The notes beneath the pieces were generated by a model. That model saw nothing but the letters and a program-made list of their open reading frames with translations, was not told where the DNA came from and ran no database searches. The translations under genes and the position numbers were made by a program. DNA of 64,000 nucleotides from Gudongella oleilytica (GTDB lineage: Bacteria; Bacillota; Clostridia; Tissierellales; Tissierellaceae), in the NCBI RefSeq assembly GCF_004101785.1, contig NZ_CP035130.1:2046001-2110000 (forward strand). Reading direction: 5' to 3'. Positions 26,979-29,443 of the stretch are shown here, piece by piece (positions within the stretch are counted from its first letter, which is position 1; every line of letters begins with the position of its first letter).

Positions 26979-27875
26979 TCAGACTCCCTCATTGTCAAAG
27001 GGAGGAATGAAGCTTTCCTTAGCAGTTTCTCCTTCCTGGATGTAGCCATTAGAGATCCCCAGCTCCAGGGCATAATCAATCACCTGCTGGTATTCCTCGT
27101 CATCAAGTACTCTATTTATCTCAGGCCAGGAAATAAGAGGAGCTGAAGGGGTAAATTGATTCATTATGCTTATGAGTATAGAATCACCATACCTCAGATA
27201 CAAATATTCAAGGATTTTTTTCGAATCCTCCTGCTGACCAGGTAAAACCAAGTGTCTTGCTATTACACCGCTTAAAAGAATCCCATTATCGTTAAATACC
27301 AGTTCAGGCTGCTGACTTATCATCTCATCAAAGGCCTTAGAAGCTATTTCAGGGTAGTCAGGTGCATTTGAATATTTCTTTGCCAGTAGACCATCAAAAT
27401 ACTTGAAGTCTGAAAGATAAATATCCACTACCCCAGCAAGGTCTCTAAGGCTCTCCACTGTCTCATAGCTGCTTGTGTTGTAAACTATAGGGATATTTAA
27501 CCCCTTTGATTTAGATCGAATAATGGCCTGTTTAATTTGGGGTGAAAAATGAGTTGGAGTAACAAGGTTTATATTTGCCGCTCCCTTGTCCTCAAGCTCC
27601 AGATAAATTTCTGAAAGCCTTTCTATTGTTACTTCTTTGCCTCTACCCTCATGAGCTATATCATAATTTTGACAATACACACAGCCAAGATTGCAGCCTG
27701 TAAAGAAAACTGTACCAGATCCTGTATCCCCTGATATGCATGGCTCCTCCCAGAAATGAAGCGCTGCTCTTGCAATTCTGATCTTGTCTGTCTCTCCACA
27801 ATATCCCTTTTCACCAATGTTCCTGTTGACACCACAGCTTCTGGGACAGATCATGCAGCTTCCCATCTTATCCAA
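26979..27875 (-). CDS. PflX-type radical SAM protein
   Basis: 298 residues. The radical SAM cluster motif FTGCNLGCVYCQNYDIA (CxxxCxxC) lies near residue 60. An N-terminal cysteine-rich stretch CMICPRSCGVNR...GYC is characteristic of the PflX (COG1313) group, relatives of pyruvate formate-lyase activase. The target is unknown. The likely start is TTG at 27875, spaced 6 nt from GGAGGT; an in-frame ATG three codons later is 15 nt away. The next upstream gene on this strand is the putative selenoprotein, 23 bp away, so the two may be co-transcribed. Confidence 0.85.
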   Translation of the reverse strand: MDKMGSCMICPRSCGVNRNIGEKGYCGETDKIRIARAALHFWEEPCISGDTGSGTVFFTGCNLGCVYCQNYDIAHEGRGKEVTIERLSEIYLELEDKGAANINLVTPTHFSPQIKQAIIRSKSKGLNIPIVYNTSSYETVESLRDLAGVVDIYLSDFKYFDGLLAKKYSNAPDYPEIASKAFDEMISQQPELVFNDNGILLSGVIARHLVLPGQQEDSKKILEYLYLRYGDSILISIMNQFTPSAPLISWPEINRVLDDEEYQQVIDYALELGISNGYIQEGETAKESFIPPFDNEGV

Positions 27876-27898
27876 TCACTTACCTCCATCTTACAAGC

Positions 27899-28183
27899 TT
27901 ATATGATCCTTATTCCATCTACATCAATTCTTTTGATCAGGATACCCACCTCGATGATTTGAAACCCTTTTTCCTGGATTTCCAGTCTCTTGCTGATATA
28001 TATATCCAAACCCTCTACGCTCTCAATATAATACTCGTCAGCATTCATCGGTCTTCCCAAAGAAACCTTTGGTATAGTTGCCCTGCCTCAACACATTTTT
28101 GTCATGTAGGCTCCGATTGTTATTGAGTCAATTGACTTCATTTTTATGTGTTTTCTTGCTTTTTCAGTTATCTTTATATTCAT
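27899..28183 (-). CDS. HesB/IscA-like selenoprotein (CC/Se motif family), UGA at codon 32
   Basis: From ATG 28183 (AGGAG 10 nt upstream) to TAA 27899-27901 the frame has 95 codons with a single in-frame TGA, at 28088-28090, immediately after a TGT (Cys31). Read as selenocysteine, it gives a 94-residue protein with MNIKITEKARKHIK at the start, TKMC-Sec-GRATIPKVSLG in the middle, and ISKRLEIQEKG then IKRIDVDGIRII at the end. This matches the small HesB/IscA-like CC/Se-motif family, in which the motif is Cys-Cys or Cys-Sec followed by Gly. A SECIS-like hairpin sits at 28057-28072. The sequence after the UGA keeps the family pattern, arguing against decay. Function is unknown; a redox or metal role is inferred. 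It lies 23 bp upstream of the PflX gene. Confidence 0.75.
28057..28072 (-). promoter_or_regulatory. Bacterial SECIS-like hairpin
   Basis: On the minus strand CCAAAG-GTTT-CTTTGG forms a perfect 6-bp stem with a GUUU loop. It begins 15 nt after the UGA codon, and the loop begins 21 nt after it. Bacterial SECIS elements place a short stem with a G among the first loop bases about 16-37 nt beyond the UGA, which fits. It lies inside the coding sequence, as required in bacteria. Confidence 0.65.
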
Positions 28184-28222
28184 ATCCCTAAATCTCCTAT
28201 CGATAGCTACTCACATACTGGA

Positions 28223-29443
28223 TCAACTGTGCCTTCTCAATCTCAGACCTCTCCTCAGACTACTTAGCCTTCCTTCCTTTTTGTCAGCAATATCGTTATG
28301 CTTATTTAAGACTCTCGAGTATAACTCCTCGACACTATCGGCAAAAATCCCGGTAGAGTAACCAAGTGAGTTTTCAACAGCTCTTCCGGACATTTCAGTT
28401 CTTTTTGTCTCATCTGAAAGGAGCTCCTCCACTCTGGATTTAAATTCCTCGAAGGTATCGTATTGATATCCATTTATACCGTCGTTTATAACTCCCTCGA
28501 GAGCAAGATCTCTTCTGCATATAGGCGGGACTCCACATGCAAGTGCCTCTATATAAGTCAGTCCCTGCGTTTCGCTAGTTGAGCAGCTTACAAATATATC
28601 TCCCAATTTATAATATTTGTGAAGTGTTGAAGGCTCCACTAATCCTACAAAAATAACCCTGTCTGTAAGTTCCATCGCGTCAACCAGCTCTTCAAGCCTT
28701 GATCTGTATGGCCCGATCCCCGTTATCAGTAAAACGGTATCATTTCTATCGAGACGCTTATAGTAATCCAGTAATTCATCAAGATTTTTTTCCTTTGCAA
28801 GCCTTCCTACATAGACCAATACCTTTTTATCAGGTGCTATGCCCAGATGACTCTTAAGTTCTTTCTGCTCAAGGTCATTAGTCTTTTGATAGAATGAATC
28901 CAGTCGGATACCTGACGGAATAACTGATATCCTCGGAATTACTCCATAGCCTTCTAACAGTCTCTTTACTTTGGCAGTTGGCACAATAACCTCATCCAGT
29001 GCATCGAGAAGTCTTCTTGAAAGGTAAGCAACTGTTTTTTTCCCTATTTGCTCGTTTATTGAGAAATAATGAGTATAATCCTCGTAAACAGTATGGTAGG
29101 TATGAACATGAGGTATCCCCAACGCTTTAACGATCCTCTTTGCAAATATGAAGGTTGTGAATTCTGCCTGCGTATGGATAATATCCGGTGCCCATTTAAG
29201 GATCTCGTCGTATAGCTCCCCAAACAGGTAAATAGAAGCTCTGGCACCGGGATAAAGCTTGTCTGCCGAAACTGATTTTATATAGTATACATTACCTTCT
29301 TTTCTTGAATGAAGGCTGTTTGAAAGAGTCAATATCCTTACGTCATGCCCTTTTGCCAACAGCTCTCTTTCAAGATTGGTAACAGATGTTACCACTCCGT
29401 TGACAATTGGCTTATACCAATCTGTTGCAATTAATATTTTCAC
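28223..29443 (-). CDS. Family-4 glycosyltransferase
   Basis: 406 residues from a GTG at 29443 (GAGGTG upstream). The GT-B fold is clear: N-terminal ILIATDWYKPIVNGVVTSVTNL, an acceptor-side HTYHTVYEDYTHY, then the donor domain VYVGRLAKEKNLDELL and the nucleotide-sugar motif TSETQGLTYIEALACGVP. It resembles 1,2-diacylglycerol 3-glucosyltransferases and related glycolipid enzymes of Firmicutes, which work at the cytoplasmic membrane surface; the exact sugar and acceptor are not determined. It is downstream of the threonine aldolase gene on the same strand, about 130 bp away. Confidence 0.85.
   Translation of the reverse strand: MKILIATDWYKPIVNGVVTSVTNLERELLAKGHDVRILTLSNSLHSRKEGNVYYIKSVSADKLYPGARASIYLFGELYDEILKWAPDIIHTQAEFTTFIFAKRIVKALGIPHVHTYHTVYEDYTHYFSINEQIGKKTVAYLSRRLLDALDEVIVPTAKVKRLLEGYGVIPRISVIPSGIRLDSFYQKTNDLEQKELKSHLGIAPDKKVLVYVGRLAKEKNLDELLDYYKRLDRNDTVLLITGIGPYRSRLEELVDAMELTDRVIFVGLVEPSTLHKYYKLGDIFVSCSTSETQGLTYIEALACGVPPICRRDLALEGVINDGINGYQYDTFEEFKSRVEELLSDETKRTEMSGRAVENSLGYSTGIFADSVEELYSRVLNKHNDIADKKEGRLSSLRRGLRLRRHS

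Follow-up and report, generated by a model that had tools for sequence, protein, structure and literature searches.

A UGA-containing gene of Gudongella oleilytica probably encodes a selenoprotein of the CC/Se motif family with a predicted IscA/SufA fold

The 64,000-nucleotide stretch of the Gudongella oleilytica genome analyzed here (the window) carries on its reverse strand a short gene whose frame contains a single UGA. Does this codon end translation, or is it read as selenocysteine (Sec), and if so, what kind of protein results? The flanking frames on both sides of the gene terminate in TGA, and UGA is therefore an ordinary stop in the G. oleilytica genome too. As read from the sequence, the gene starts with an ATG at 28183, 10 nt downstream of the end of an AGGAG; its codon 32 is TGA, preceded by TGT (Cys31) and followed by GGC (Gly33), the residues after Cys31 read U-G-R-A, and the frame is closed by a TAA at 27901-27899. 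An earlier note on this DNA had described a 95-codon frame with one UGA directly after a Cys codon, which agrees with our reading once the TAA is counted. Cys31 is the sole Cys of the protein, and the computed mass of the product with Sec is 10.8 kDa. The features of the locus are collected in Table 1. We consider it highly likely, with a probability of roughly 0.92, that the gene encodes a selenoprotein of the CC/Se motif family (NF041239); the figure covers the selenoprotein claim alone and excludes function. As far as sequence can settle the matter, UGA32 is a Sec codon.

Table 1. Features at and around the putative selenoprotein gene, in positions of the window
Feature	Positions	Strand	Remarks
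Radical SAM protein gene (PflA-like)	26979..27875	minus	Begins 23 nt past the selenoprotein stop
CC/Se motif family selenoprotein gene	27899..28183	minus	94 codons plus TAA, single in-frame UGA; NF041239, 57.2 bits
SECIS-type hairpin	28057..28072	minus	6-bp stem, loop GTTT (Val40 codon and next base), 15 nt after the UGA
In-frame UGA at codon 32, presumed Sec codon (Cys31-Sec32-Gly33)	28088..28090	minus	Six residues ahead of the conserved Pro
Glycosyltransferase family 4 gene	28223..29443	minus	39 nt upstream of the selenoprotein gene; ends in TGA

The protein matches the NCBIfam profile NF041239, 'CC/Se motif family (seleno)protein' (short name Moor_selen_rel), well above its curated cut-off of 40 bits (E 1.3e-15), with residues 1-90 on positions 1-90 of the 91 in the profile. 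Along with this full-length match, the size of the protein, the Cys beside the Sec and the conservation past the UGA place it in the family. Taken alone, the 62 residues after the UGA still match the profile at 28.7 bits (E 1.1e-6, profile positions 34-90), while the 31 residues before it match more poorly (15.6 bits, E 0.012). The family pattern thus continues beyond the UGA up to a real TAA, as had been claimed, and the loss of conservation after the UGA that would have spoken against a selenoprotein was not seen. No Pfam family was found for the protein at E up to 1. Table 1 of a recent review (PMC13188914, May 2026) lists NF041239 as 'CC/Se motif family selenoprotein (hypothetical protein predicted in Moorella thermoacetica)' with the motif CxxU, apart from the HesB-like family TIGR01911 with the motif UxGP. 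Within the open literature searched, no other paper mentions NF041239 by name. As the family is already in print there, the gene in the window is a further member of a known family, though with an adjacent C-U instead of the CxxU given in that table. Of the earlier label, 'HesB/IscA-like CC/Se-motif family', the CC/Se part therefore stands; HesB/IscA-like names a separate NCBIfam family, with which the fold alone is common. Similarly, the warning that stop-based gene callers will miss or truncate the gene has to be narrowed, since the NCBI model itself names the family a (seleno)protein, and annotation with that model need not miss it.

The G. oleilytica genome, a single contig (C1) of 2,356,157 bases, encodes the machinery for Sec. 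All four genes that the earlier note had proposed to look for, selC, selB, selA and selD, are clustered within about 5.2 kb (C1:1393240-1398456), with profile scores of 384.6 bits for selB, 620.7 bits for selA and 395 bits for selD. The tRNA-Sec of the cluster has the anticodon UCA and is the only tRNA with that anticodon in the two stretches of the genome scanned with ARAGORN. The selD gene (C1:1397530-1398456) itself contains one in-frame UGA, and the selenophosphate synthetase of G. oleilytica is therefore probably a selenoprotein as well. G. oleilytica encodes three CC/Se family members, all of which contain a single UGA: the copy in the window and a tandem pair starting at C1:278825 and C1:279152. 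The pair (C1:278825-279430) sits between a YibE/F-like gene and the gene for ribosomal protein L25, neighbors that recur in three loci of the same genus. Two HesB-like matches, again with one UGA each, lie in tandem at C1:312298 and 312763 (span 312298-313014), and neither reaches the cut-off of TIGR01911 or that of NF038090. Upstream of them is a 417-residue frame (positions 682-1935 of the stretch around the pair) that, judged by eye, we take to resemble a group II intron reverse transcriptase.

Relatives of the protein are found in about half of the genomes of the order (123 of 249, with 87 over the cut-off), including Tissierella praeacuta and T. creatinophila. Closest to the window copy is a relative encoded in a genome of the same genus; it is 43% identical and keeps C-U-G-R, with 16 of 31 aligned residues conserved before the UGA and 24 of 62 after it. 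The UGA form goes together with selA, which is present in all 66 genomes with a listed UGA form versus 21 of the 51 with only non-UGA forms listed (Fisher p 1.6e-14, a statistic that ignores shared descent). This comparison covers the 117 genomes with listed stop content, six of the 123 being set aside, and its counts rest on the listed matches, leaving aside any unlisted weak matches in the same genomes. Among the matches listed for the order, no member has an internal TAA or TAG. Of 398 genomes drawn evenly across the phylum, 90 have a match, and the matches listed there include one with an internal TAA and one with an internal TAG, both from one genome. Several weak matches across the phylum carry two in-frame TGA codons and are perhaps double-Sec relatives. 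A search of phages found no relative, and in viral contigs none of 53 candidate stretches was confirmed as one.

For a closer reading of the motif, 63 members (40 with the UGA and 23 without) were hand-picked from the longer order-wide match list. In 27 of the 40, including the window copy, the UGA precedes the conserved Pro38 by six residues, in 12 by seven and in one by nine; Sec holds its position within one residue in 39 of the 40 UGA members, and the partner Cys does not. The latter occurs only at +1 relative to Sec in 12 members, only at -3 in nine and only at -1 in another nine, among them the window copy, with rarer placements at both -3 and -2 (two members), at -2 (one) and at both -1 and +2 (one). 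Altogether 34 of the 40 have a Cys no more than three residues from Sec, and the other six have none within four. In the members without UGA, a Cys stands five to eight residues before the Pro in 18 of 23 (exactly six in eight of these), and five have no Cys in the whole protein. Given these varying spacings, UGA and Cys correspond as parts of a motif, not always as one alignment column. The idea that Cys-Cys or Cys-Sec falls exactly at codon 32 in this family is accordingly right in that the motif of the relatives contains Sec or Cys, but the codon varies, and only eight of the 23 non-UGA members have the Cys at the exact place. Four family matches beside uppP lack Cys entirely, so the motif has seemingly been lost in that branch.

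The hairpin downstream of the UGA pairs a 5' arm CCAAAG (28072-28067) with a 3' arm CTTTGG (28062-28057) around the loop at 28066-28063, and all six of the pairs that had been claimed for it were confirmed. The folding energy is ordinary: for a 56-nt stretch z was 0.27, with 109 of 200 shuffles folding as well, and across members the mean z of -0.89 with UGA versus -0.72 without gave no separation (window copy, 0.09). As energy failed to split the two groups, a pairing test was used in its place, and the case for the hairpin rests on comparison, not on stability. In this test the stem pairs were set against synonymous recoding (5000 draws), with each locus supplying the codon usage through all its long open frames, including spurious ones; after four UGA members had been removed for a repeated 16-mer, 36 distinct ones remained. 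These form 4.56 of 6 pairs versus 3.34 (sd 0.15) expected, a value reached in none of the draws, whereas the 23 non-UGA members show no excess (2.35 versus 2.18 pairs expected, reached in 866 of 5000 draws). The tested register came from the window's own fold and was scanned afterwards, and neither the test nor the scan corrects for descent. Among the 132 registers scanned, the highest z (7.9) belonged to the same helix displaced outward by a single pair, and the tested register came second (z 6.8); the third (z 4.9) also leads among the non-UGA members (z 4.0).

Changes on both sides of a pair are found at positions 3,12 (TA in 18 members, AT in seven), 1,14 (CG in 18, TA in six) and 4,11 (CG in 20, AT in three, TA in two). 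All six pairs are present in the window copy, formed by its own set of bases, and four are present in its nearest relative. The stem begins 15 nt after the UGA in 27 of the 40 UGA members, 18 nt after it in 12 and 24 nt in one. The loop opens with G in 34 of 36 UGA members versus nine of 23 without UGA, though this G also opens the conserved Val codon and is thus not independent evidence. The spacing, the loop G and the covariation in the family are consistent with the bacterial SECIS geometry that had been proposed; the folding energy is not distinctive. When positions 27600-28500 were searched against Rfam, four matches came up, all below threshold and none of them a SECIS. For the hairpin of this family, as for an IscA fold, the openly accessible parts of the literature searched yielded no description.

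Given the above, SelB with Sec-tRNA would read UGA32 as Sec, and the hairpin would steer the readthrough. That a recoded tRNA inserts some other residue such as Cys or Trp, as the Cys in the motif stretch of 18 of 23 non-UGA members might suggest, is exceedingly improbable, because the sole UCA tRNA in the two scanned stretches is the tRNA-Sec beside selA, selB and selD, because UGA ends the neighboring frames, and because of the selA link and the hairpin. Termination at the UGA, leaving a decayed copy or a 31-residue peptide, is likewise very unlikely. It would fit a genome in which UGA is the normal stop, ending the frames next door, and a hairpin of unremarkable folding energy; it does not fit a protein that is conserved beyond the UGA, the fact that 40 of the 63 members sampled carry UGA in this motif, internal stops that are TGA in all the order's listed matches (with the TAA and TAG across the phylum confined to a single genome), the restriction of the UGA form to genomes with selA, and a hairpin that covaries. 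A pseudogene was rejected on account of the selA association, the excess of hairpin pairing and the conservation after the UGA.

The glycosyltransferase, selenoprotein and radical SAM genes likely form an operon, and the radical SAM gene is probably co-transcribed with the selenoprotein gene. Open frames in the window with 100 or more residues were set against those of 53 further stretches, one being the sel cluster and the other 52, several of which overlap, surrounding family members; the one match, an aminotransferase, was weak; nor did the four nearest neighbors in the window share a cluster with the neighbors of 62 other members. As the neighbors do not recur beside the other members sampled, the radical SAM gene was dropped as evidence of function. 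Around the 63 members, with neighbor groups named by profile from one representative each, a Rex-type repressor (by Pfam domains) lies downstream in six, UppP is a neighbor in five (all without UGA), CstA in four, and YibE/F is upstream in four and downstream in one. An SDF-family symporter gene lies upstream in five members, with the CC/Se gene beginning 1-27 nt past it, and in two of these five loci a cysteine-synthase-like gene comes next, a context that possibly ties the family to cystine or cysteine. Because the family adjoins differing genes across its members, no single pathway follows.

An AlphaFold2 model (15 sequences, Sec modelled as Cys) has a pLDDT of 89.1 and a pTM of 0.78, and puts residues 31-32 where the chain turns from strand 20-30 into strand 33-42. 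In Foldseek the best match is SufA (2d2a, E 4.5e-4), the only one below 0.001; the ten best, with moderate TM-scores on the query of 0.43-0.61, comprise IscA, SufA, HI1723, AQ_1857, a model with YneR, and DsrR, all of which we take to be of the IscA/HesB type. VIA-align gives IscA (1x0g) at Z 8.0 over 87 residues (rmsd 3.1), where a Z under 8 can mean merely a common arrangement; its ten best entries read as IscA/HesB type, and the first other one has a Z of 2.1. The protein is thus predicted to share the IscA/SufA fold, and 'HesB/IscA-like', which does not hold as a family name, holds as a description of that predicted fold. IscA carries a C-terminal Cys pair (CxC). With Cys31 as its only Cys, the window protein lacks this pair, and it also lacks a match to the A-type carrier family PF01521, so that it may share the predicted fold of the A-type carriers without belonging to them.

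Sequence comparisons with these proteins are weaker. A profile comparison with Escherichia coli IscA (8% probability, E 0.004) aligns codon 32 with IscA Cys35, and one with HesB-like selenoproteins (24%, E 8.1e-4) puts their Sec column on Cys31, one residue off. In an alignment of 26 members (the window protein and 25 of 32 others, the seven left out being mostly near-duplicates), 12 match the IscA/HesB profile NF038090 and 11 match PF01521; the window protein itself matches neither. A sequence-profile search of solved structures gave four matches, the best at E 1.7 and none of IscA type. The HesB-like selenoproteins of TIGR01911 resemble the protein in being IscA-type by family name and in having Sec in the same loop region, but TIGR01911 was not listed for it at E up to 1 (HMMER filters drop most matches above 0.1), and the UxGP motif that PMC13188914 tabulates for that family is absent from the window protein, which has U-G-R-A in its place.

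What might a Cys31-Sec32 pair do on such a fold? In the model it would lie at the tip of a beta-hairpin, in the loop that in IscA holds Cys35, with IscA's C-terminal cysteines missing. One answer is that the pair serves as a ligand of a metal or an Fe-S cluster, in the manner of an A-type carrier or another metal-binding protein, and not as a redox pair. The predicted fold, the members that match NF038090 or PF01521, the alignment of Sec32 with IscA Cys35 in a weak profile comparison, and single members that adjoin an ArsR-type regulator and an arsenite methyltransferase are in line with this. There is no second pair of ligands, however, with Cys31 the only Cys; the window protein has no Pfam match, and a fold alone shows no function. 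We regard such a metal or cluster site as rather unlikely, though it ranks next after a redox role.

The function that we tentatively rank first, at somewhat less than even odds, is a selenol redox site formed by Sec32 and Cys31 rather than an Fe-S cluster scaffold. Sec32 would be the reactive residue and Cys31 its partner in a reversible Se-S bond. An adjacent Cys-Sec pair is also found in the C-terminus of mammalian thioredoxin reductase (G-C-U-G); the folds are unrelated, and the likeness would be a chemical analogy only. Toward a redox pair points the Cys close to Sec in most UGA members (34 of 40); against it are the shifting place of that Cys, which may stand at -3, -2, -1 or +1, and the six UGA members that have none nearby.

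In a wider and more speculative view, which we hold to be possible though doubtful, the IscA fold would have given rise to the CC/Se family as a Sec-rich side branch, in which the C-terminal cluster ligands were lost and one loop site was kept, with Sec six or seven residues before the Pro (39 of 40) and the Cys wandering from -3 to +1. The stem and loop of its SECIS would be drawn from the conserved P-S-V-x-M-G codons, where demands on protein and RNA would fall together. The five IscA-fold selenoproteins of G. oleilytica (three CC/Se and two HesB-like) might then be small selenol redox or metal-sensing proteins placed across many operons.

The approach taken here provides a control that can be reused for other candidates, as pairing of the hairpin exceeds synonymous recoding in the relatives with UGA and not in those without. 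For the family, a hypothetical selenoprotein is now tied, through the predicted structure, to the IscA/SufA fold, and the loop with Cys31 and Sec32 is singled out as its candidate site. Should the family turn out to be of IscA type yet free of a cluster, the contribution of selenium to the IscA fold would become apparent.
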